Part shown: positions 8,461 through 45,297 of the stretch, piece after piece
How the letters are laid out: every line of letters begins with the position of its first letter
How positions within the stretch are numbered: the stretch's first letter is position 1
Source of the DNA: Candidatus Nitrosocosmicus sp.
Lineage (GTDB): Archaea; Thermoproteota; Nitrososphaeria; Nitrososphaerales; Nitrososphaeraceae
Direction of reading: 5' to 3'
Length of the DNA stretch: 45,297 bases
NCBI GenBank assembly: GCA_029194465.1
Contig: JARFXS010000020.1
Coordinates: forward strand, 1 to 45,297
Notes under the pieces: model-generated
What the model was told of the DNA's origin: nothing
Databases searched by the model: none
What the model saw: only the letters and a program-made list of their open reading frames with translations
Translations under genes and position numbers: made by a program

Positions 8461-9642
8461 CTACGATACTATATCTGCTATTGCCTCACCACTCGAAGTG
8501 CTGTTTGTGGCATTGCTTATTGCTCCTGTGTCGTCGATTGACTGTAGACCCTTTTCGGCGAGTACTTCATTTAACAATGTCGTATCATAGATGCCTGAAA
8601 GATTTGGTCGATCTTTACCTTTCTCTATAAATCCTAGGTCATAAGCGTCATTTGCACTCTTAAAGAGGGTTAATTTCAATGGATCATAAGTTAGTTCTAG
8701 ATTACTAAAGGCCTTGTCTAGGACATTTTCTGATATCTCTTGACCAGTAAGTTTCTTCAACTGAGTATTGAATTCCTTTGCTGCTGCTGCTGCTGTATCG
8801 TTGTTTATCTTTAGTGTTTCATCTACGTGAGCTTCAAGCAGTTTCTTTATGACATCAGGATTCTTTTCAAGGTAGTCCGTTCTGACAATTAAATTGGCAG
8901 TCACGAATTTACCATCTGGCCATAAACTTTTTTCATCAACTAATACTTTACCGCCTGCTTCTTGTACTAATCTTGTTGCCCAAGGTTCAGGTACCCATGC
9001 TCCGTCAATTTCTTTTTTCAAAAATGCTGTCAATATATCCGCATTTGCAATAGGTAACACCGTTACGTTTCCACCATTTTCAATGGTATTAAAGCCATTG
9101 TCTATCAAGTATTTTCTCAAAGCCACATCTTGTGTGTTACCTAATTGAGGGGATGCAAATTTCTTTCCGCCTAAGTCATTGACTGTTTCTATTCCTGAAT
9201 CATTTCTAACTATAAATGATGCGCCACCGCTTGATGCACCAGAAATTACCCTAAGATCTTTGCCGTCTGTAAGAAGATAACCATTAATTGCTGGATTGGG
9301 GCCAATGTATGTTGCATCAATCCTATCTGCTAATAACGATTCAATTGCAGATGGTCCAGCATTAAATTTAACTGTTTCAACAGTAACATTAGCGCCTAAT
9401 ACATTCTGAAAATCTCCATCATTTAATCCAATTACAGCCTGTGCATGAGTGATATTTGGAAAGTAACCAATTCTCAAAGTCTTTTTCTCATCACCTAATG
9501 ATTGTGCACTGGCAATCGATATGGGTGCTGATATCAATGCCACTGTGGTAATAATCATTGTAAAGACTAAGATAAGTTGTCTTCCTCTGTTATCAAGATT
9601 CTTTAGATTCTTGATACCTACTTTTTCTGACTTATTAATCAT
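8461..9642 (-). CDS. ABC substrate-binding protein, SsuA/TauA/NrtA type (1)
   Basis: The 393-residue exported protein has a Sec signal sequence (about residues 20-47, LILVFTMIITTVALISAPIS, ending in SAQS). The periplasmic-binding-protein type II fold follows, with family motifs LRIGYFPNITHAQAVIGL, YIGPNPAINGYL, LGGKKFASPQLGNTQDVALR and DGAWVPEPWATRL. The C-terminus is low-complexity (NATNSTSSGEA). Relatives bind aliphatic sulfonates, taurine, nitrate or bicarbonate outside the cell and deliver them to a TauC/SsuC permease. The neighbouring ComA homologue makes a sulfonate the more likely ligand, but the motifs do not decide it. It is the most distal gene of the cluster, and a second paralogue lies 441 bp upstream. 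Confidence 0.88.
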   Translation of the reverse strand: MINKSEKVGIKNLKNLDNRGRQLILVFTMIITTVALISAPISIASAQSLGDEKKTLRIGYFPNITHAQAVIGLNDGDFQNVLGANVTVETVKFNAGPSAIESLLADRIDATYIGPNPAINGYLLTDGKDLRVISGASSGGASFIVRNDSGIETVNDLGGKKFASPQLGNTQDVALRKYLIDNGFNTIENGGNVTVLPIANADILTAFLKKEIDGAWVPEPWATRLVQEAGGKVLVDEKSLWPDGKFVTANLIVRTDYLEKNPDVIKKLLEAHVDETLKINNDTAAAAAKEFNTQLKKLTGQEISENVLDKAFSNLELTYDPLKLTLFKSANDAYDLGFIEKGKDRPNLSGIYDTTLLNEVLAEKGLQSIDDTGAISNATNSTSSGEAIADIVS

Positions 9643-10083
9643 CAGTCGTATATCGTTAAACGTTACTTATTATTCATTTTCAATGTGCCATTTTTTTTAA
9701 TATTGCGCAGTTTAAGCATATATTCTGCGCCGACCGAAAAGTTATAATACTATGTCATCCACACGCCGGGACCTGATCGGCTCAACCATTATGGATAATT
9801 TAGTATGTCGTTTAGTACAGGCAGGCGATACGATACCTACTTCGTCCAAATTTGAAAGTATCGTGATCCAAAACCAAAAATCTAAGGAATAAGATTTTGA
9901 ATAGTGATGCTTAACTTTTTACCCATGATAGTATCATTGACTAGAATTTATAGACTTTAAGTTACGAAATTGTGTTACCTGATCCTTTTCGTCCCAATAT
10001 GTTTGATAGAACCTACCTCCGTTTACTAACATTTATTTAATTACTCATTATTAGTAAATTAAAAAACAAACTATTATTACTGC
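9643..10083. other. Intergenic between the two binding-protein genes
   Basis: This 441-bp spacer holds no open frame. A TATA-like minus-strand signal (revcomp of gttataatac, near 9740) lies about 100 bp upstream of the first binding protein, so that gene may have its own promoter. A more GC-rich patch (cacacgccgggacctgatcggc, 9760-9782) stands out in composition, but I could not fold it into a known RNA. Confidence 0.35.
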
Positions 10084-11241
10084 TTATGAAATGGGGCTCA
10101 GGCCTTTACTTTTTAGTACTTCGTTTAAAAGCCCGAGATCATAGATGCTTGATAAGTCTAATTCACGACCGCTTCCTAAATTAATGTATCCCAAGTCGTT
10201 AGCATCCTGAGCAATCTTGTTAAGCGATGACGAGAGGGGATCGTACGTAAATTCTATTCGTGATAATGCGTCTTTTATTTGGTTTTCTGGATAAGTTTTA
10301 CCAGTAATTTTTTTTAGCCCATCATTGAATGCAACCGTTAATTCTTGAATATTTTTTTCATCCGTTTCGGTATCATTAGTTTTTGATAATTTTTGATTTA
10401 TCCATAGCGTTTCATTGACATGTGCTTCAAGCAGTTTCTTTATGATTTCAGGGTTCTTATCGAAATAATCTGTTCTAGCTAAAATATTAGCTGTCACAAA
10501 TTTACCTTCTGGTGGCCAGAGATCCCTTTCGTCGACCAAGATAAATCCATCCCCCTGTTCTTTAAGAATGGCAACTAAAGGTTCAGGTACCCATGCTCCA
10601 TCAATCTCTTTATTTAGGAACATATTGATAATGTCTGCAGGTTTTGCTGCCACGACTGTTACGTTTCCACCATTTTCAATGGTATTAAAGCCATTGTCTA
10701 TCAAGTATTTTCTCAAAGCCACATCATGTGTGTTACCTAATTGAGGGGATGCAAATTTCTTTCCGCCTAGGTCATTGACTGTTTCTATTCCTGAATCATT
10801 TCTAACAATAAAAGAAGCTCCACCGCTGGCTACACCAGAAATTACGCGTAAGCCATCGCCCCCAGATACAATGTAACCATTAATAGTAGGGTTAGGACCA
10901 AGGTAAGCTACGTCAATTTGTCCTGAATATAGAGCTTCAATTGCAGAGGGACCGGAGTTAAAAACAATCCCTTTTAGAGATATGTTACCCAAGTTTTTAT
11001 CATTTTCTATTATTTGCCTAAAATCTCCATTATTTAAGCCAATAATGGCTTGAGCATGATTTAAATTTGGAAAATACCCAATTTTCAAAGCATCAGCCTT
11101 CGCATTTACGGTTTGACTGGTGGATCCTGTTGTACTGTTATCCTGACCAAGCAATAATGACCAATAAAAGTTATAATTAGAAGATATGATAACTGCGATA
11201 ATTATAGCAAAAGATATACCCAATTTTAATTTTGAATCCAT
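10084..11241 (-). CDS. ABC substrate-binding protein, SsuA/TauA/NrtA type (2)
   Basis: The 385-residue paralogue of the protein at 8461-9642 has an N-terminal membrane/signal segment (LGISFAIIIAVIISSNY), a Ser/Thr linker (STTGSTSQTVNA), then the binding domain (LKIGYFPNLNHAQAIIGL, YLGPNPTINGYI, DGAWVPEPLVAIL). The two proteins are clearly diverged except for a central block around ASPQLGNT and the next 35 residues, where DNA identity jumps (see findings). Two binding proteins served by one permease would broaden or tune substrate range. It lies about 200 bp downstream of the permease gene on the same strand. The frame is intact. Confidence 0.88.
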   Translation of the reverse strand: MDSKLKLGISFAIIIAVIISSNYNFYWSLLLGQDNSTTGSTSQTVNAKADALKIGYFPNLNHAQAIIGLNNGDFRQIIENDKNLGNISLKGIVFNSGPSAIEALYSGQIDVAYLGPNPTINGYIVSGGDGLRVISGVASGGASFIVRNDSGIETVNDLGGKKFASPQLGNTHDVALRKYLIDNGFNTIENGGNVTVVAAKPADIINMFLNKEIDGAWVPEPLVAILKEQGDGFILVDERDLWPPEGKFVTANILARTDYFDKNPEIIKKLLEAHVNETLWINQKLSKTNDTETDEKNIQELTVAFNDGLKKITGKTYPENQIKDALSRIEFTYDPLSSSLNKIAQDANDLGYINLGSGRELDLSSIYDLGLLNEVLKSKGLSPIS

Positions 11242-11439: not shown

Positions 11440-12376
11440 TCATTTATTCTCGATGTCATGCTCTTGTCTTAATCCCCATTTCTCTCTTACCTTATCTTCT
11501 AGTTTTGCAAAGATTACCTTGTCAAATAGCATTCCTAATGCGAAAATAGTAATCATAGATGCTATTATGTTATCCATCAGCTGAAATTCTCTACCAACTA
11601 ACAGTATATGTCCTATCCCTACCGCAGCAGCCATAAGTATTTCAGCTCCAATCAAAGCGTGCCAAGCAAATGACCACGCTTGTTTTATTCCTATTATTAA
11701 TGCAGGTGTGGCTGCTGGTATCATCAAATATCTAAATAATGAGAAACCCTTTGCTCCCATGTTTCTTGCAGCCTTTAGATATATGGGAGGTATGTTTCTT
11801 ATTCCACTATATGCTGAGATCATTACTGAAAATACTGAACTCATTATGACTACAAATAATATTCCAATATCATTTAGACCGATAAGTAGGATAGCAAATG
11901 GAACCCAAGCAACACTGGAAAAGACTGCAATCCTACTGCAAAAGAACTCATTGTTTTTCCAAACCACTAAATCTTACCATTGCAAGTCCCACACAAACTC
12001 CAATTCCTATTGATGCAGCAAAACCAATCAAAAGCCTGTAAAGGGTCATTCCTATGCTTATCCACAACGTGTTATCTAGAATTAGGTCATAAAACGATCC
12101 TACTACCATGATAGGAGAAGGTAGTGAAACTTTTGGCCAAATACCACTTAAATATGCTAGTTGCCATAGGCCGATAAAAACTGCAATAAATAAAACAGTA
12201 TTAGCTAATTCATCCAACTTAATTTTCTTTTTCAAGGGATTCTTACTTTTATTAGTCCTTTTTTCTTCTAAAGATATGATTTCTGATTCTTCGATGGATT
12301 GTGATTCATCTATGTTAATCATTACATCTTCTTTATTTTTCCGTCTAATTTTGTCGTCTTCCGGCCCCTCGTACAA
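11440..12376 (-). pseudogene. ABC permease, TauC/SsuC type, two one-base deletions (copy 1)
   Basis: Read as one gene it would encode about 312 residues: a charged N-terminal tail of about 60 residues, then the binding-protein-dependent permease domain with the EAA loop (KAARNMGAKGFSLFRYLMIP). It falls into three frames. Compared with the intact copy at 27123-27947, one C is missing near 11918 (cactgga versus cactcgga) and one A near 11964 (ccaaacc versus ccaaaacc); restoring both gives 313 codons. Outside its N-terminus it is nearly identical to copy 2. The charged tail with IEESEIISLEEKR is absent from copy 2. Two isolated indels in an otherwise perfect gene suggest either very recent inactivation or sequencing error. 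Confidence 0.8.
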
Positions 12377-12762
12377 AGAAATCTTGTTTATTATTAGACC
12401 TCCCGTATATCAATTTTCTTTCTCAGAATTTTTTGGAATTTTGTTCTTATCAACTATATCATAATATCTGCATTGCCTGGAAGCGGTTCCTTTGTGTCCA
12501 AAAAGTCCAAGGTAAACCCCCTACATACTTTTAGTTCCAATATAATATAATCATCTTTTTCGGTATTTTGGTGATGTTGGATAATTAATCAAAAATATCT
12601 TGTCTTAGTATTAGAAATTTAATTTAAATTCAGATAAAACTGTAAAAAAATAAGAGTAAATCTTAATTTTATACAACTGAAATACCTTAGGAAGAAATGG
12701 CAATTTTGAAGGTGTAGTCTGTCTAATGTTCGTCAGTATTTCTTAGATCCATTCTGCCTTGA
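12377..12762. other. Intergenic between comA-like gene and permease
   Basis: No gene recognised. The spacer has a TATA-like patch (tccaatataatataatc, about 12537-12553) that could drive the permease gene on the minus strand from roughly 170 bp upstream. A short segment near 12470-12520 is more GC-rich and may be a coding relic, but it cannot be assigned. Confidence 0.35.
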
Positions 12763-13731
12763 CTAAATTGTAGACTTTTTTTCTCGTATCGTCCAGTTTT
12801 TATTCTTTTCTACTATCAACCTTGCTTTTTGAGTTCTTCGACTGAAAGCTTGAACTGTTCTTCGTGGTAGATTTGTAATATAGATCAATTCGCTTTGATC
12901 AATGGGGTGTTTACTTCTAATTATGTAATGAATAAATTTTGTAGCCGGACTACCTTCGGGCCCTTTCTTTACTGGAGTTATACTAAAGCTTGCCTTTGAT
13001 AAGAAACCCCTCCTTTGAGATTCTATGGATAAAACATTATTGAGTTTAATCTCACCCATGCTTACACGCTGGCCAAACTCAGCAACCAGTACTGCCTGCT
13101 GAATCTCTAAAGGAGCTTCAAAAATTATGCTGTTGGGAGAAATTTTTGAAGTAATGGCAGAAAGCAAATTCCATTTTATATCGCCCTTTTCATCATAGAT
13201 GCCCACATTATATCCCAAATTTGCCTCCAGAACTATTTTCTCTTGGCTTATTTCTAGAACTTCATTCATTTTCTTTACAGTTTCATCGACTGAAAGTTGC
13301 CTTCTGGGATCTTTGTGCCCTATTTTCCATTGAGCCCTCATGTCATACGAATCAACTATTTTTAGAATCTTCTTTTTTTCCTCAAAGGTAAGATGAATGC
13401 TGTTTTCACTTATTTCAATAATATCAAACCCAATTGTTTTTGCACTTTCCATGAATTTTTCAAACACCTTTTCACGAATAGCGTATTCAGTGAGAGTGCT
13501 TCCAGTAGAGACTAGAACATTTGACTGATGGTAAAAATCAATTCTATTAATGAGACTATGTTGTTTAAGAAGGAGAGGAAAAGCTCCATATATCTTGACC
13601 ATATCGATATAGGGAGAAATAGCTTCAAAATTCTCTTTGTCAAGCCCTTGAAATTTGTCTATAATATACGTAATACCATCATGACGGGGTTTTTTATGAT
13701 CTATTCTATCCTCAATCAGGGTTTCTAGCAT
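12763..13731 (-). CDS. ComA-like phosphosulfolactate synthase with C-terminal putative winged helix
   Basis: Residues 1-250 follow the ComA (PF02679) pattern through ISENSIHLTFEEKKKI, GHKDPRRQLS, NVGIYDEKGDIKWNLL, IIFEAPLEIQQAVLVAEFG and NVLSIESQRRGF. ComA makes (2R)-phosphosulfolactate from PEP and sulfite in coenzyme M synthesis and is about 250 residues. Here about 65 extra residues follow, resembling a winged helix (FIHYIIRSKHPIDQSELIYI, then a recognition-helix-like segment PRRTVQAFSRRTQKARLIV). Two normally conserved stretches are altered: the usual FGWGT region reads IYGAF and the PGGTLFE region reads STGSTLTE. The gene lies between ABC ATPase and permease genes. It may be an enzyme, a regulator derived from one, or both. 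Confidence 0.8.
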   Translation of the reverse strand: MLETLIEDRIDHKKPRHDGITYIIDKFQGLDKENFEAISPYIDMVKIYGAFPLLLKQHSLINRIDFYHQSNVLVSTGSTLTEYAIREKVFEKFMESAKTIGFDIIEISENSIHLTFEEKKKILKIVDSYDMRAQWKIGHKDPRRQLSVDETVKKMNEVLEISQEKIVLEANLGYNVGIYDEKGDIKWNLLSAITSKISPNSIIFEAPLEIQQAVLVAEFGQRVSMGEIKLNNVLSIESQRRGFLSKASFSITPVKKGPEGSPATKFIHYIIRSKHPIDQSELIYITNLPRRTVQAFSRRTQKARLIVEKNKNWTIREKKSTI

Positions 13732-14271
13732 GAATGGATGTATGCAGAATTTACATATAATTAAATTGATATATGCATTTTTGTAAGTATACAGTAGACA
13801 AGGAGCAGTAATTTTCGCATAAGACGCTAATTTGACGCATTGTAATCCTCATTCCTATTACGGCTTTACATCCCTAAATTTGTCCCCATCTAATTGTGAC
13901 GACGAATTTTATGGTCAATAGTTTACTGTAAAAAATGGTTTAATTCTGATTGAAATGTATTGTTTTTATTCAACAGATCATGTTTGAACAATATTTAGCA
14001 ATCGTATACCGGCCGTACCTTGGTATATTTTCCAAGCGTTTCATCCGGAATACCGGTTGAGGCCGTGATTGACAGCATGTCTTTTGAATAGTCTAATGAT
14101 GATGTTTTGAAAAATTCAAACTTTTCGGATAACAATAGTGGCTATCTTGATTCCAAGACACAATAACCGGTGTAGAAACAGTATTAAAACAAATAGATTT
14201 TTCTAGTGCCTTTGAATATCTTTTTGTTTCATCATCACAGTATCCTGATCTTGCGTTTATAGAACACTTGA
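13732..14271 (-). other. Spacer with unidentified coding relic
   Basis: Between about 14000 and 14240 the minus strand reads as two adjoining frame pieces, STPVIVSWNQDSHYCYP and LDYSKDMLSITASTGIPDET, ending at a stop. They look like the C-terminal part of a protein that I cannot identify. The remainder, 13740-13980, is non-coding and includes the upstream region of the comA-like gene. The same pieces occur in the inverted copy near 17390-17580. Confidence 0.35.
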
Positions 14272-15139
14272 TTAATTTACCGTAGAAATAATTGTGCGAT
14301 CAAGGTCTTCACTAGCAGTTTCAGACTCTTTAACAGGATCATTCACAAATAAATCATTTGATTCAGAAATTATTTCTCGGGTTATTGATTCAACGAGTGG
14401 ATGATCAATACTGCGTGGTCGCGGTATATTCACAAATATTTGTTTCTTTATATTCGCCAATTTAGGAGACATGACAATAACTCTGTCACCCAACGCCACT
14501 GCCTCATGAATGTTATGCGTAACAAACAAAATAGTTTTTTTGGTTTCTTGATGAATTCTCAACAAATGTGAATAAAGCATTTTCCTAGTCTGAACATCTA
14601 AAGCGGCAAATGGCTCGTCCATCAACAAAATTTTAGGATCAATGCCAATGCTCTGGCTGTGCAACTCTTTGCTTCATTCCTCCCGATAAGCTTTGATGAA
14701 TATAGGCTTGTGTAAAACTAGTCAATTGAACCATTTCGATTAATTTCATGACTTTTTCTTTTCTTTCTTTTGGAATCCTTGCAATCTTTAAACCAAATTC
14801 AATGTTTTCATAAACTGTTAGCCAGGGAAACAATGCTCCTTCTTGAAAACAACAACTCTATCCGTTCTTGGTGAGAAAGCAACAGGTTTATCATCAACAA
14901 GTATCTCCATCAAATACCTCGTCTAAACCAGCAACCAAATTAAGTAACGTACTTTTTCCACATCCAGAAGGACCCACAATTGTAACGAACTCTCCATTTT
15001 TAATACTTAAATTAAGTTTGTTGATAACCGTATGTTTGGAATTAATTTTGTTCTTTTTATCAGTAAATTCTTTAGAAATGTTTTCAAGTTTTAGAATTAA
15101 ACCATCAGTAGATTGAATAGGACTTGCTAGACTAGACAT
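14272..15139 (-). pseudogene. ABC ATPase, SsuB/TauB type, broken by small deletions (copy A)
   Basis: All ABC motifs are present but in different frames: Walker [19 protein letters not shown], signature LSGGMKQRV, Walker [14 protein letters not shown] and the switch histidine in [10 protein letters not shown]. Comparison with the inverted copy shows a missing GA in the gagaga run near 14902, a missing T in a T-run near 14848, and two missing bases near 14640-14662. Adding five bases gives 873 nt, an intact 290-residue protein. It would energise import through the downstream permease. The start at 15139 has an AT-rich promoter upstream. The inverted copy is correct at the first two sites, so a working allele can be rebuilt from the two copies. 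Confidence 0.82.
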
Positions 15140-15613
15140 ATTTATTATATAAATGAGAAATTATATAATTAAAGTCTATATGCAACATTCACCGATATAT
15201 GTCATACCTGCACACTTTCCGGAGATTTATGCGTCTTTTATGACCAATTATTCAGAACTTAGAGTCAAAATCTGGAAAGTATCTTGGTTTATTACCTATT
15301 TAGAAGGAATTGATCTACATCAATCCCATATTTATAGCACAGAAGGTATTAGTAGAGAATCTAGAATCCCTCATTCTAGATTAATTTAGGCCATGGCTAA
15401 ATTTACCCGTTGCAATCTTTTCTTGTTAACGTGTAATTCCAAATTGTCTGGTAACTCCTAATAATTCAATGGTAGTTTCGGATTTCCTCTCTAAATTTAT
15501 GATTTCTAATAAGGCGATCCAAAACTTCAAGAACTCAATTGTATTAGTGAATTTGCATAATGTAATTGGAAATAAGTAATCTTCAGATAAGTTCCTATGT
15601 GCAAGATCTGCAT
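15140..15613. other. Upstream region of the ATPase operon, possible small gene
   Basis: A TATA-like sequence (revcomp of atttattatataaat, 15140-15154) sits directly upstream of the ATPase start. A minus-strand frame of 63 codons (15426-15617) has a helical, amphipathic look (FLKFWIALLEIINLE, then TTIELLGVTRQFG), but in the inverted copy it is interrupted. No family is recognised. Confidence 0.35.
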
Positions 15614-15980
15614 CCATTAGCTAAATTTAGCATATTATTATACCTGGCTAAATGTTTTAATCATATTATATTTTATTGGGGATTGATCGCTGGCAATGGA
15701 TTTACTAATTGAAATTAAATAGTTTTTTATATTTTTTATAAAGTGTTTTAATAACTACTGAAATATCATATATGATGATTGGCAGTCCCCATCCAATCAA
15801 GTAGTTATACCTTGCAGAGAAACACAAGAGCGTGCATATTCATTATAGTATGTGATTCAGGTAATAACTGAACCCGTGCCATCACATGGTTGAGTTAGCA
15901 ACCTGAATCACAATCTTTATTATATAAAATAGAATACAAAACAAGTTTATGAGCACTATCATTTCATAAGGTTGACGTGA
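15614..15980. repeat. Loop element S1 of the fold-back
   Basis: This non-palindromic 367-bp segment separates arm A from its inverted copy. A second copy (S2) is at 19597-19964 in the same orientation, with long exact runs (for example 45 bp around the hairpin at 15851) broken by clustered small differences. No protein frame is conserved between the copies. Confidence 0.8.
15851..15912. promoter_or_regulatory. 12-bp perfect inverted repeat, structured element in S1
   Basis: tgtgattcaggt (15851-15862) is the exact reverse complement of acctgaatcaca (15901-15912), with a 38-nt loop containing a smaller ccat-cac-atgg hairpin. Both stem halves are identical in S2. It could be a structured RNA, an operator or a recombination site; strand and transcription are not known. 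Confidence 0.5.
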
Positions 15981-16449
15981 TGCAGATCTTACACATAGGA
16001 ACTTAATTGAAAATTACTTATTTCCAATTACATTATTGTAAATTCGCTAATACAATTGAGTTCTTGAAGTTTTGGATCGCCTTATTAGAAATCATAAATT
16101 TAGAGAGGTGAAATCGAAACTACCATTGAATTAGTAGGAGTTGCCAGACAATTTGGAGATTACACGTTAACAAGAAAAGATTGCAACGGTGAATTTAGCC
16201 ATGGCCTAATTAATCTAGAATGATTCTGAATCTTTCTACTAATACCTTCTTGTGCTATAAATATGGGATTGATGTAGGATCTATTCCTTCTAAATAGGTA
16301 ATAAACCAAGATACTTTCAGATTTTGACTCTGCTAAGTTCTGAATAATTGGTCATGAGCCATAAATCTCAGGAAGTGTGCAGGTATATTTCCTATAAGTG
16401 GTGTTGCATATAGGGCTTTAATTATATAATTTCTCTGTTTATAATAAAT

Positions 16450-17321: not shown

Positions 17322-17857
17322 TCAAGTGTTCTAAGAATACAAGATCAAGTGCTGTGATGATGAAACAAGTAGATATTCAAAGGCACTAGAAAAATCTGTT
17401 GTTTTAGTATTGTTTCTATACGGTTATTGTGTCTTGGAATCAATATGACCTCTATTATTATCGAAAAGTTTGAATTTTCAAAAACATCATCATTAGACTA
17501 TTCAAAAGACATGCTGTCAATCACGGCTTCAACTGGTATTCCTGATGAAACGCTTGGAAAATATACCAACGTAGGCCGTTAAACGATTGCTAAATATTGT
17601 TCTAAACATGATCTGTTGAATAAAAACAATACATTTCAATCAGAATTAAACCATTTTTTACAGTAAACTATTGACCATAAAATTCGTCGTCACAATTAGA
17701 TGGGGACAAATTTAGGGATGTAAAGCCGTAATAGGAATGAGGATTACAATGCGTCAAATTAGCGTCTTATGCGAAAATTACTGCTCCTTGTCTACTGTAT
17801 ACTTACAAAAATGCATATATCAATTTAATTATATGTAAATTCTGCATACATCCATTC

Positions 17858-18391
17858 ATGCTAGAAACCCTGATTGAGGATAGAATAGATCATAAAAAAC
17901 CCCGTCATGATGGTATTACGTATATTATAGACAAATTTCAAGGGCTTGACAAAGAGAATTTTGAAGCTATTTCTCCCTATATCGATATGGTCAAGATATA
18001 TGGAGCTTTTCCTCTCCTTCTTAAACAACATAGTCTCATTAATAGAATTGATTTTTACCATCAGTCAAATGTTCTAGTCTCTACTGGAAGCACTCTCACT
18101 GAATACGCTATTCGTGAAAAGGTGTTTGAAAAATTCATGGAAAGTGCAAAAACAATTGGGTTTGATATTATTGAAATAAGTGAAAACAGCATTCATCTTA
18201 CCTTTGAGGAAAAAAAGAAGATTCTAAAAATAGTTGATTCGTATGACATGAGGGCTCAATGGAAAATAGGGCACAAAGATCCCAGAAGGCAACTTTCAGT
18301 CGATGAAACTGTAAAGAAAATGAATGAAGTTCTAGAAATAAGCCAAGAGAAAATAGTTCTGGAGGCAAATTTGGGATATAATGTGGGCATC
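17858..18391 (+). pseudogene. Truncated comA-like copy (first 178 codons)
   Basis: Identical in translation to residues 1-178 of the gene at 12763-13731, then the sequence switches strand at the fold-back junction and the open frame runs on for about 30 unrelated residues to a stop at 18487. The barrel's C-terminal half and the winged helix are missing, so it cannot fold as a ComA domain. The lack of any differences over this part contrasts with the eroded ATPase copy next to it. Confidence 0.85.
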
Positions 18392-19596
18392 TATTTTCCA
18401 TTGAGCCCTCATGTCATACAGATCAACTATTTTAGAATATGCTTCTTTTTTTTCCTCAAAGGTAAGATGAATGCTGTATTCCAATAATATCAAACCCAAT
18501 TGTTTCAACACTTTCCATGAATTTTTCAAACACACACAGGCATGTATGTGGATATCTTCAGTAGAAGACTAGAACATTGACTGATGGTAAAAATCAGTTC
18601 TACTAATGAGACTATGTTACTTTTAGAGAATCCATATATCTTGACCATATCGACTATAGGAAAATAATTCTCTTTATCAAGCCTGAAATTTGTCTATAAT
18701 ATAAGCAATACCATCATGACAGATATATCTATTCTATCCTCAATCAGAAGGTTTCTAGCACATGAATGGATGTATGCAGAATTTACATATAATTAAATTG
18801 ATATACCATTTTTATGTTAATAAGACAAAAAATTCAGTAATTTTCACTATAAGTTTTACTTAATTTGGCACGTGTAATCCTCATTCTGTGCAACACATCT
18901 AAATTTGTCCCCATCTAATTGTGACGGCTGTACAACATGGTCAATAGTTACTGTAAAAAATGGTTTATCTGATACGAAATGTATTATTTTATTCAACAGA
19001 TCATGTTTAGAACAATATTTAACGATTTAATTTATATTTTTAAGCGTTCCACCAGTTGAGCCCATGGCTCATCTAATGACAATGTTACATTTATAATAGA
19101 TACTTGTATTCTTAGAACACTTGATAATTGCACCATGCATCGTCTTCACTGTAATTTCAGGCTCTTATCATTTGATTCAAAATTGGCAGATGAGATGATC
19201 AACTGCATGCAATTACTGACCAGGAGACAGCAACCCAATAACTCTGTCATAACATATACCTACCTCATGAAATAACAAAATAGTTTTGATTTCTTATTCT
19301 CAACAAATGTGGTATAGACATGTAAACGAGTCAGACGAACCATTTCATTATTCATGACTTCTTTCTTTTTCTTTGCAGAATCCTTACAATCTTTAAACCA
19401 AAATTCAATATTTCATAAACTGTGTAAGCTCATCTCCTGTAAAACAACAACTCTATACAAAATTTCCATCATGCATTCATCTAAACAAAGCAATAAATTA
19501 AATAACGTAAACTTTTCAGAAGAACCCACAATATAACGAACTCTCTTGTTGACAACCATATACATTCTTCTATCAGTAAATTCTTTAGAAATGTTT
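18392..19596 (-). pseudogene. Eroded third copy of comA-like/ATPase block (A'')
   Basis: In the original orientation this segment matches 13323 to about 15085, but it is shortened from about 1.76 kb to 1.2 kb by dozens of small deletions and substitutions. Recognisable pieces are the comA-like part at 18392-18770 and ATPase scraps at about 19130-19595 (for example the segments for EFTDK and the C-terminal DHP region). No reading frame survives. The part of arm A from 15085 to 15613 is absent, and the copy runs straight into loop S2. Confidence 0.75.
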
Positions 19597-27122: not shown

Positions 27123-27947
27123 TTATTTGTTCTCGATGTCCTGCTCTTGTCTTAATCCCCATTTCTCTCTTACCTTATCTTCTAATTTTGCAAAGATAAC
27201 TTTGTCAAATAGCATTCCTAATGCGAAAATAGTAATCATAGATGCTATGATATGATCCATCAGCTGAAATTCTCTACCAACTAACAGTATATGTCCTATC
27301 CCTACCGCAGCAGCCATAAGTATTTCGGCTCCAATCAAAGCGTGCCAAGCAAATGACCACGCTTGTTTTATTCCTATTATTAATGCAGGTGTGGCTGCTG
27401 GTATCATCAAATATCTAAATAATGAGAAACCCTTTGCTCCCATGTTTCTTGCAGCCTTTAGATATATGGGAGGTATGTTTCTTATTCCACTATATGCTGA
27501 GATCATTACTGAAAATACTGAACTCATTATGACTACAAATAATATTCCAATATCATTTAGACCGATAAGTAGGATAGCAAATGGAACCCAAGCAACACTC
27601 GGAAAAGACTGCAATCCTACTGCAAAAGAACTCATTGTTTTTCCAAAACCACTAAATCTTACCATTGCAAGTCCTACACAAACTCCAATTCCTATTGAAG
27701 CAGCAAAACCAATCAAAAGCCTGTAAAGGGTCATTCCTATGCTTATAGTCAAAGTGCTATCTAGAGTTAGGTCATAAAACGATCCTACTACCATGATAGG
27801 AGAGGGGAGTGAAACTTTTGGCCAAATACCACTCAAATATGCTAGTTGCCATAGGCCGATAAAAACTGCAATAAATAAAACAGTATTAGCGAAAACTTCT
27901 AGATCTACTTTAGTCTTTAAGGGAGATTTTTTTTGTAGCTCTAACAT
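27123..27947 (-). CDS. ABC permease, TauC/SsuC type (copy 2, intact)
   Basis: The 274-residue inner-membrane subunit has about six membrane helices: VFANTVLFIAVFIGLWQLA, LYRLLIGFAASIGIGVCVGL, PFAILLIGLNDIGILFVVIM, PALIIGIKQAW, LIGAEILMAAAVGIGHILLV and MITIFALGMLF. The cytoplasmic EAA loop that contacts the ATPase is KAARNMGAKGFSLFRYLMIP. It would import a sulfonate, taurine or nitrate-type anion. It is nearly identical to copy 1 at 11440 except for a short N-terminus (MLELQKKSPLKTK). It starts 2 bp after the stop of the preceding ATPase remnant, so the two are one transcription unit, yet no binding-protein gene is adjacent. It may use the binding proteins at 8.4-11.2 kb. Confidence 0.9.
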   Translation of the reverse strand: MLELQKKSPLKTKVDLEVFANTVLFIAVFIGLWQLAYLSGIWPKVSLPSPIMVVGSFYDLTLDSTLTISIGMTLYRLLIGFAASIGIGVCVGLAMVRFSGFGKTMSSFAVGLQSFPSVAWVPFAILLIGLNDIGILFVVIMSSVFSVMISAYSGIRNIPPIYLKAARNMGAKGFSLFRYLMIPAATPALIIGIKQAWSFAWHALIGAEILMAAAVGIGHILLVGREFQLMDHIIASMITIFALGMLFDKVIFAKLEDKVREKWGLRQEQDIENK

Positions 27948-29328: not shown

Positions 29329-29679
29329 TTATCTCATCATGTTTCTACATTCTTGGGCACATTTTTTACACATTTCAGCACATTCTTTACATGCTTCCAT
29401 TTTGTTACCCATTTTTTCACATTCCATTGCACATGCGTCACATACGGTAGCACACATTTCACACATCTGCTTTGAGTATTCGCTACCTCGAGCCATCATC
29501 ATTGAAGCCATCATACACATCATTGCGCAGTCTCTGCACATCATCATACATCGGCCCATCATACCGGCCATTTCGGTGTTAGACATACATGCGGTACAAC
29601 AAGCTTCGCACATCATTGCGCATTCATTGCAAGTATCAATACAAGTTTGGTTTTTTTGATTAATAAGAGAAGTGTTCAT
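29329..29679 (-). CDS. Cytosolic copper-storage-like four-helix protein (DUF326)
   Basis: The 116-residue protein has 21 cysteines and a very large number of methionines in CxxxC/CxxC spacing along predicted helices (TCNECAMMCEACCTACM, RCMMMCRDCAMMCMM, QMCEMCATVCDACAMEC and KECAEMCKKCAQEC). This is the DUF326/Csp pattern: a four-helix bundle that stores many Cu(I) ions inside the core. There is no signal peptide, so it would act in the cytosol like Csp3. Ammonia oxidisers have high copper demand, which fits a buffering role. A TATA box about 25 bp upstream predicts a leaderless mRNA. A decayed duplicate lies at 21721-22049. Confidence 0.85.
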   Translation of the reverse strand: MNTSLINQKNQTCIDTCNECAMMCEACCTACMSNTEMAGMMGRCMMMCRDCAMMCMMASMMMARGSEYSKQMCEMCATVCDACAMECEKMGNKMEACKECAEMCKKCAQECRNMMR

Positions 29680-29710: not shown

Positions 29711-30146
29711 CTTTCTAAAAAATACGTCATTTATGTAAAATATATGCGAAAATAGCGTATAAATAATAAAAAAGATAAAATATTTATAAAAAATGTATGT
29801 GATTCAAACGCATAGCGATATACATATTAGACAGATTTTGTCTGGCTATCAATCCATTAATCTTGGACCTAAGAATATGCCCGATATCCCAAGAAAAAAT
29901 CATCTTAATACTGTTTGGATCATTGCCTGGTTCTAAGGGATAATATGTCTAGACGGATCATATTTTCTAAACAATATAATAAAGGGTAACGGCTCATCTT
30001 TTTTAAAGTTCAGATTCAAAAATGTAATGTTGTATTCTAAGGAGTCAATATCTGACAAAAAAATAAATGAATTATGGCTTATTGATCAATCTGTCTTTTT
30101 AAATTTATGAAAACATGAGTATGAGAAAAATCAAAGACCAAAACTC
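29711..30146. other. Intergenic, nothing recognised
   Basis: AT-rich spacer between copper-storage and carbonic-anhydrase genes; no supported frame on either strand. Confidence 0.35.
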
Positions 30147-44506: not shown

Positions 44507-45297
44507 ATGACACAAACAACTAAAATCGAATATTCCCATCCGGAAGTACTGGTTGACACACGGTGGGTTGAGGAACATTTAAACGATCCTAATATAAGGA
44601 TAGTAGAAGTGGACTATGATTCTCTCACCAATTATCATCTTGGCCATATTCCAGGAGCAATTTTACTTGAATGGAAAAAAGACATAAACCACCCACCCTC
44701 AAGAGACATTCTCACTGCAGAAAGTTACAAAAATATCCTTCGTAAGCTTGGACTAGATGATGATAAATCAATAACGATTGTCCTTTATGGAGACTTTAAC
44801 AATTGGTTCGCAGCATTTGCTTATTGGGTCTTTAAGTATTATGGTTACGAAAACTTGAAACTGATTAATGGTGGAAGGAAAAAATGGCTTGATGAAGACA
44901 GACCTATTTCAAAGAAAATAGTTGTCTTTTCTAAAGGGAAGTACGGCCTGTCTAAATCGTTCAAACCTAACTCAAAAATCAGGGTTTATCTATCAGACAT
45001 CAAAGAAGCTCTTGTGAGCAGAAGGAAGGTTCAGACCAGAATAGTAGATGTAAGGAGTCCACAGGAATATACTGGTGAAATAACTTCACCTCCAGAATAT
45101 CCTACTGAACATGCACAAAAGCCGGGTCATATTCCTGGAGCTCAGAATATACCTTGGGCACATGTTCTAAACGAGGATGGTACATTCAAATCTGCTAACG
45201 AGTTATCCGATATTTATCGGTCAAGGAATATTTTACCATCCAATGAAGTGATCACTTATTGCAGAATAGGAGAGCGATTCTCTCATTCATGGTTTGT
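44507..45297 (+). CDS. Two-domain rhodanese (thiosulfate/3-mercaptopyruvate sulfurtransferase), 3' truncated by window
   Basis: The gene is open from ATG at 44507 to the window edge (263 codons). Domain 1 (about 10-140) has VDTRWVEEHLNDPNIRIVEV, GHIPGAILLEW and a KLGLDDDKSI loop, with no catalytic Cys: its equivalent loop reads YGDFNNW. Domain 2 (about 165 onward) has TRIVDVRSPQEYTGE, GHIPGAQNIPWAHV and the active-site loop YCRIGER with Cys252. The family moves sulfane sulfur from thiosulfate or mercaptopyruvate to a thiol or cyanide, often releasing sulfite. Copies 2 and 3 suggest only about 30 more residues follow. It is the only intact copy of at least three in this window. Confidence 0.9.
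   Translation, partial: MTQTTKIEYSHPEVLVDTRWVEEHLNDPNIRIVEVDYDSLTNYHLGHIPGAILLEWKKDINHPPSRDILTAESYKNILRKLGLDDDKSITIVLYGDFNNWFAAFAYWVFKYYGYENLKLINGGRKKWLDEDRPISKKIVVFSKGKYGLSKSFKPNSKIRVYLSDIKEALVSRRKVQTRIVDVRSPQEYTGEITSPPEYPTEHAQKPGHIPGAQNIPWAHVLNEDGTFKSANELSDIYRSRNILPSNEVITYCRIGERFSHSWF

Follow-up and report, generated by a model that had tools for sequence, protein, structure and literature searches.

INTRODUCTION

Regulators that derive from metabolic enzymes, or that combine enzymatic and regulatory functions, are already known, as exemplified by BirA, NadR, PutA and the ROK repressors. To our knowledge, none of these is built on ComA, the (2R)-phospho-3-sulfolactate synthase (PF02679, TIGR03849; structures 1qwg and 1u83), and within the literature searched we found nothing on point about ComA in Nitrososphaera/Thaumarchaeota, about a ComA-based regulator, which as far as we know is thus undescribed, or about a NAD kinase with a winged helix. 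Bacterial Ssu/Tau operons, which encode the SsuABC/TauABC transporters (TIGR01728), are controlled by the LysR-type regulators Cbl/CysB. In ammonia-oxidising archaea, we are aware of few transcription factors with a known role.

Here we analyse a protein of Nitrososphaerales that resembles each of these systems in part. Its entire barrel aligns with ComA, but it continues into a winged-helix tail, falls below the ComA equivalog cut-off and occurs without comB. This tail aligns with the MarR/SlyA regulators (PF12802, PF01047; 4mnu, 1lj9) in the recognition helix and a portion of the wing, and the fusion shares with them a palindromic operator candidate, although the DNA-binding module is all that the two have in common and the remainder of the fusion is an enzyme barrel. 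Like BirA, NadR, PutA and the ROK repressors, it combines a metabolic enzyme domain with a DNA-binding domain and is encoded close to genes from the same pathway, and a related module is carried by a different enzyme in Thermoproteota, namely a NAD kinase with a C-terminal MarR-type winged helix. The ABC genes linked to the fusion are similar to those of SsuABC/TauABC transporters, their substrate being putative, but they are tied here to a ComA fusion rather than to a LysR-type regulator. We consider it likely that the family is a ComA-derived, autoregulating transcription factor for sulfonate/sulfite-related genes, for which both DNA binding and the ligand are predicted.

RESULTS

The DNA stretch analysed in full (hereafter, the window) is an entire 45,297-nt contig of a draft Candidatus Nitrosocosmicus genome (84% complete, 263 contigs). 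An earlier note, made from the letters of this DNA, had described an open reading frame at 12763-13731 specifying a ComA-like barrel with an additional C-terminal domain. The reading frame exists and runs on the minus strand, encoding 322 aa as read from an ATG start, as compared with ~328 aa in intact relatives. The barrel assignment was well founded: residues 12-244 (13000-13698, minus strand) match PF02679 with an E-value of 1.5e-61, far above the cut-off, and the barrel's only convincing relatives in the PDB are entries annotated as phosphosulfolactate synthase, although the protein scores 169.8 bits against the TIGR03849 equivalog model, under its 280-bit cut-off. Comparison with M. jannaschii ComA (1qwg) and B. 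subtilis YitD (1u83) further confirmed that the stretches IYGAF and STGSTLTE, singled out earlier, differ from ComA. In the window protein, KFGWG is replaced by KIYGA and (P/F)GGTL by TGSTL, and, taking the M. jannaschii letters as the reference, EISDG reads EISEN, TEVGKK reads WKIGHK, EGRESG reads EANL-G and LRGDTF reads LSKASF. Signature motifs common to the M. jannaschii and B. subtilis proteins are hence altered in the window protein; FEAP and QQ are retained, and a Lys aligns with K137 of the M. jannaschii enzyme.

The extra ~75 C-terminal residues are conserved across dozens of genomes. Intact relatives stop ~80 residues beyond the barrel, whereas the M. jannaschii and B. subtilis proteins terminate before the tail. 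The tails of intact relatives follow the consensus GxPAxKFIYYIIxxKxPIxQSELIxxTxLPRRTVQxAxExLKxQGLIxExxSLDDxRKKVY, with invariant residues in the helix and the wing. Searched against the PDB, the tail profile finds MarR/SlyA proteins (4mnu at 3.1e-5), and every one of the 22 tails sampled hits both Pfam MarR_2 and TrmB with E <= 0.1, the best MarR_2 value being 9.1e-8. AlphaFold predictions from shallow alignments were uninformative (pLDDT 38 for the full protein with 5 sequences, 52 for the tail alone with 4 sequences), so the fold claim rests on sequence similarity; by this measure, the tail of intact relatives is a winged helix, as first suspected, and of the MarR type. The window's own tail (residues 260-322; 12766-12954, minus strand) is frameshifted from about position 12846, and the undisturbed frame would end near 12743. 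Relative to the closest intact relative (L055), it has accumulated indels of +1, -1 and then +2, so that 'QAFSRRTQKAR' can be read as a frameshifted 'QASVEELKEQG' and 'KNWTIREKKSTI*' as a frameshifted 'SLDDTRKKVYNLVKAEWI', which places half of the recognition helix and the entire wing out of frame. With these three indels, the window copy has no intact MarR-type domain.

Further damage is evident around the gene. A truncated second ComA-like copy comprising the N-terminal part of the barrel (17858-18394, plus strand) sits within a 791-nt perfect inverted repeat, and a third, degenerate ComA remnant follows at 18684-18745. The genes for the ABC ATPase (14272-15139, minus strand; ORFs 14272-14664 and 14894-15139) and the ABC permease (11440-12376, minus strand; two ORFs) are both broken, and an intact second copy of the permease maps to 27123-27947. 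ORFs of at least 150 aa account for 41% of the first 9 kb, 32% of the next and 5-9% beyond 18 kb. Decay seems a likelier cause than sequencing error because, judged by eye, genes at the left end, including those for ribosomal proteins, look undamaged. Given the frameshifted winged helix and a neighbourhood that is rearranged and decaying, the window copy is probably inactive, and a regulatory function is not supported for it. As a separate observation, coding is very sparse between 18500 and 45000, where decayed ComA-like, Cys-rich and rhodanese duplicates occur.

We surveyed 201 genomes of the order, 71 of which have PF02679 matches (tail-less types counted). The tailed type, and with it the fusion, is conserved in no fewer than five families of the order (f1, f8, f9, f10 and f14); one tailed protein was found outside the order (L088, tail visible in the translation). 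In a barrel tree rooted with the M. jannaschii and B. subtilis proteins, and from which the short ComA-like proteins that have no tail (L009, L023 and others) were excluded, all tailed proteins group together as a clade, in which those of the Nitrososphaeraceae type (with f9) fall on one branch with 100/100 support. Because the root relies on just two outgroup rows, one of them on a long branch, this topology suggests, rather than proves, that the fusion arose once. Four deep-branching tailed proteins (L007, L008, L060 and L079) keep every ComA motif compared (KIGWG, GGTL, E-V-G-K/R-K, EGRE(S/T)G and LRGDTF), whereas typical Nitrososphaeraceae proteins have KIYGA, TGSTL, WK(I/V)GKK, EAN-G and LSKASF; most ComA signature motifs, including KFGWG, PGGTL, TEVGKK, EGRESG and LRGDTF of the reference enzyme, were thus lost or altered on one branch. 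The order of events was likely fusion first and loss of signature residues second, and a catalytic role of the compared motifs is suggested by their conservation. In f8 and f10, tail-less ComA-like proteins of a distinct type (L009, L023, L024, L030 and others) carry the motifs KFAGG and ESEGITEDLP.

None of the sampled fusion genomes contains comB (PF04029); the gene is present in a single one of the 201 genomes, which is without ComA. A role of the fusion in coenzyme M biosynthesis was rejected because comB is missing. These findings weigh on one of the two roles offered in the earlier note, that of a bifunctional autoregulated enzyme like BirA or NadR. In this reading, for which PutA is a further parallel, the barrel would still make phosphosulfolactate or a related sulfonate while the winged helix adjusts expression. 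The intact motif set of the four deep-branching proteins and the Lys of the window protein at the K137 position are in keeping with such a role, but GWG, GGT, EVGKK and EGRESG are altered in Nitrososphaeraceae and no fusion genome sampled offers comB as a partner. We regard it as unlikely for the family, and as plausible mainly for the deep-branching relatives that keep the motifs (f14, f8 and f10). The other role, that of a metabolite-sensing transcription factor, fits both the motif loss in Nitrososphaeraceae and the absence of comB, but is not supported for the frameshifted window copy.

The genomic neighbourhood of the fusion gene was then compared across loci. In 17 of 24 larger regions (14 of the 20 in one set, plus L036, L037 and L039), genes for a substrate-binding protein, permease or ATPase of the sulfonate/nitrate/taurine class adjoin the fusion gene, often in divergent orientation, and smaller loci agree. 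This adjacency recurs in f1, f8, f9, f10 and f14, so the sulfonate-type ABC context initially read from the window is conserved across families, and one linked substrate-binding protein exceeds the TIGR01728 SsuA cut-off. The ABC genes are the only widely conserved neighbour cluster; they are also more widespread than the fusion, many genomes carrying them without it, and ABC genes are not adjacent to several of the fused genes, among them the second Nitrosocosmicus paralog. The window encodes two SsuA-family relatives on the minus strand, substrate-binding protein copy 1 (10084-11241; family assigned via a relative) and copy 2 (8461-9642). Tandem rhodanese genes likewise recur near the fusion gene, and the window encodes a rhodanese-type sulfurtransferase, of this recurrent neighbour class, at 44507-45297 (plus strand). 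UDP-sulfoquinovose synthase is an enzyme that uses sulfite, and its gene adjoins the fusion gene in f8 (G064) and f10 (G145), in place of the ABC genes. The G145 neighbour scores 578.6 with NF041015 (cut-off 575) and matches SQD1 at 9e-122, and that of G064 is slightly below the cut-off at 558.7. At L146:11207-13468 (plus strand), UDP-sulfoquinovose synthase appears as one 754-aa ORF with a long insertion, possibly an intein.

A near-palindrome with the consensus TATGCAGAATCTGCATA precedes Nitrosocosmicus copy 1 of the fusion gene, and its counterparts in several further genera, at about -26 to -33. Its window version, TATGTAAATTCTGCATA in the minus-strand reading, occupies 13741-13757, 26 to 10 nt upstream of the start codon (score 20.7). 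Matrix scanning located further operator-like sites upstream of the truncated second ComA-like copy (17832-17848) and of the third remnant (18773-18789), in the inter-repeat region (15598-15614, score 18.3, and 15979-15995, score 14.9), 78 nt upstream of substrate-binding protein copy 2 (9704-9720; same position in L036, L133 and L135) and about 80 nt upstream of a Cys-rich gene (29743-29759; likewise in L186 and L135), along with a weaker site about 60-75 nt upstream of the ATPase start (15198-15214, score 12.1). Five window sites score >17 against 0.05 expected with a matrix partly trained on the window's own fusion gene site; three of them are at fusion gene copies and one at 15598, and the fifth, within the Cys-rich gene, is probably not an operator. 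The arrangement of sites differs between promoters: the fusion gene has its site just ahead of the start codon, and in Nitrosocosmicus most of the sites seen at the ATPase, second substrate-binding protein and Cys-rich genes stand near -76 to -81, upstream of an AT-rich TATA-like stretch. The small Cys-rich protein (29329-29679, minus strand), copper-storage-like by eye, occurs with an upstream operator-like site in three Nitrosocosmicus genomes (the window, L186:4328-4681 and L135:14939).

Whole-genome scans with two genus-level versions of the palindrome pattern returned zero-mismatch matches solely at the fusion gene in G083, G086, G164, G167, G063, G041 and G049. When up to one mismatch is allowed, G063 has three matches, all of them within about 10 kb. 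A matrix built from the fusion family's own promoters proved enriched upstream of substrate-binding protein and ATPase genes after exclusion of regions shared with the fusion (p 1.2e-9), as compared with a best value of 4.9e-7 and a 5th percentile of 0.004 for 200 shuffled matrices in the same test. All these p-values are too small because the species are related rather than independent, but the contrast between the real matrix and the shuffles holds despite this kinship. The operator-like palindrome common to the fusion gene and the ABC genes is thereby supported computationally, and not in every genus, since the motif is weak, different or absent in genera g5 and g8 and in family f14. Rhodanese genes are uncertain targets: a site precedes two near the Nitrosocosmicus locus (L258, L259) and two unlinked ones (L239, L240), but none was seen at the distant L246-L248 and L250-L252 or at L249, which adjoins the fusion gene in G056. 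The promoter of the second ComA-winged-helix paralog shows, by eye, a different conserved repeat like GGTATAGTTCAATATACC (L054, L071, L072, L032, L046 and L057), possibly a different operator.

The palindrome could belong to another, unlinked regulator, with the ComA-winged-helix protein otherwise employed, for instance as an enzyme or as a binding protein with an interaction tail. The motif is indeed tied to the protein through neighbourhood only, and G110, where the fusion gene was not detected, has TATGCATTTTATGCATA upstream of its substrate-binding protein gene. Against this, the exact sites are located at the fusion gene itself, the ABC genes are its sole widely conserved neighbours, and near-complete genomes that are devoid of the fusion score low upstream of the substrate-binding protein (G032, 6.2; G087, -3.2; G009, 3.6; G114, 4.3), all of which makes an unlinked owner of the palindrome quite improbable. 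That the protein is an ordinary ComA enzyme with an irrelevant C-terminal extension is scarcely credible, for its PF02679 match is far over the cut-off but its score is well under that of the ComA equivalog, the M. jannaschii and B. subtilis proteins stop before the tail, the tail has invariant helix and wing residues, and comB is lacking.

DISCUSSION

We favour an autoregulating, ComA-derived transcription factor over these alternatives. The fusion is probably a sulfur-sensing gene switch because it joins an enzyme to a DNA-binding domain, adjoins sulfonate-type uptake genes and has a promoter motif in common with them. As to DNA binding by the fusion protein, its ligand and the direction of regulation, we infer that the ComA barrel would sense a sulfite- or sulfonate-related metabolite and that the C-terminal MarR-type winged helix would bind palindromes of the TATGCAGAATCTGCATA type. 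The protein would repress its own gene, self-repression being probable because, at its own promoter, the site falls between the presumed TATA box and the start codon, close to the latter. It would also control, and perhaps activate, ABC and sulfur-handling genes; activation is possible at the Nitrosocosmicus ATPase, substrate-binding protein and Cys-rich genes because there the site is upstream of the presumed TATA box. The Nitrososphaeraceae barrel, most of whose ComA signature residues are lost, probably serves purely as a sensor, and that of the deeper relatives may still be an enzyme.

A wider proposal, which we put forward tentatively and would rate at somewhat below even chances, is that these proteins represent a new archaeal transcription factor family in which a phosphosulfolactate-synthase barrel was captured, its active site at first intact and later catalytically silenced, as a sensor of sulfite/PEP or sulfonate controlling organosulfur uptake and sulfur handling. 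The family would then be one instance of a broader pattern in Thermoproteota, where a single winged-helix module makes regulators out of metabolic enzymes (ComA, NAD kinase). The fusion family lends itself to direct testing: an operator and targets (sulfonate-type ABC genes, the Cys-rich protein and perhaps rhodanese) are proposed for it, and the list of candidate ligands is short. If the proposal is correct, soil nitrifiers regulate their use of organosulfur compounds, and the fusion family offers a worked example of the transition from enzyme to sensor with the intermediates still living. Together with the NAD-kinase fusion, it would point to a reusable module that couples metabolism to transcription.

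Two further observations were made in the course of this analysis. A palindrome, TGTGCGAATTTCGCACA, lies about 69 nt upstream of amoA (L227, L228, L230 and L236); it is perfect or nearly so in G083/G086, and its core is GCGAATTTCGC or close to it in G056 and G089. This palindrome is a candidate regulator site for ammonia monooxygenase, but amoA was not counted as a target of the fusion protein, as the perfect palindrome occurs only in G083/G086 and the core GCGAATTTCGC is different. Finally, the NAD kinase with a related C-terminal MarR-type winged helix occurs in most sampled Nitrososphaeria and in many other Thermoproteota, for example at L104:661-1692 (plus strand), whose tail scores above the Pfam MarR_2 gathering cut-off, and in the window's own genome (C204:13004-13171). 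Each of the complete genomes G007 and G056 carries such a tail exactly three times, twice on ComA-like proteins and once in a ~340-aa NAD-kinase-like ORF.
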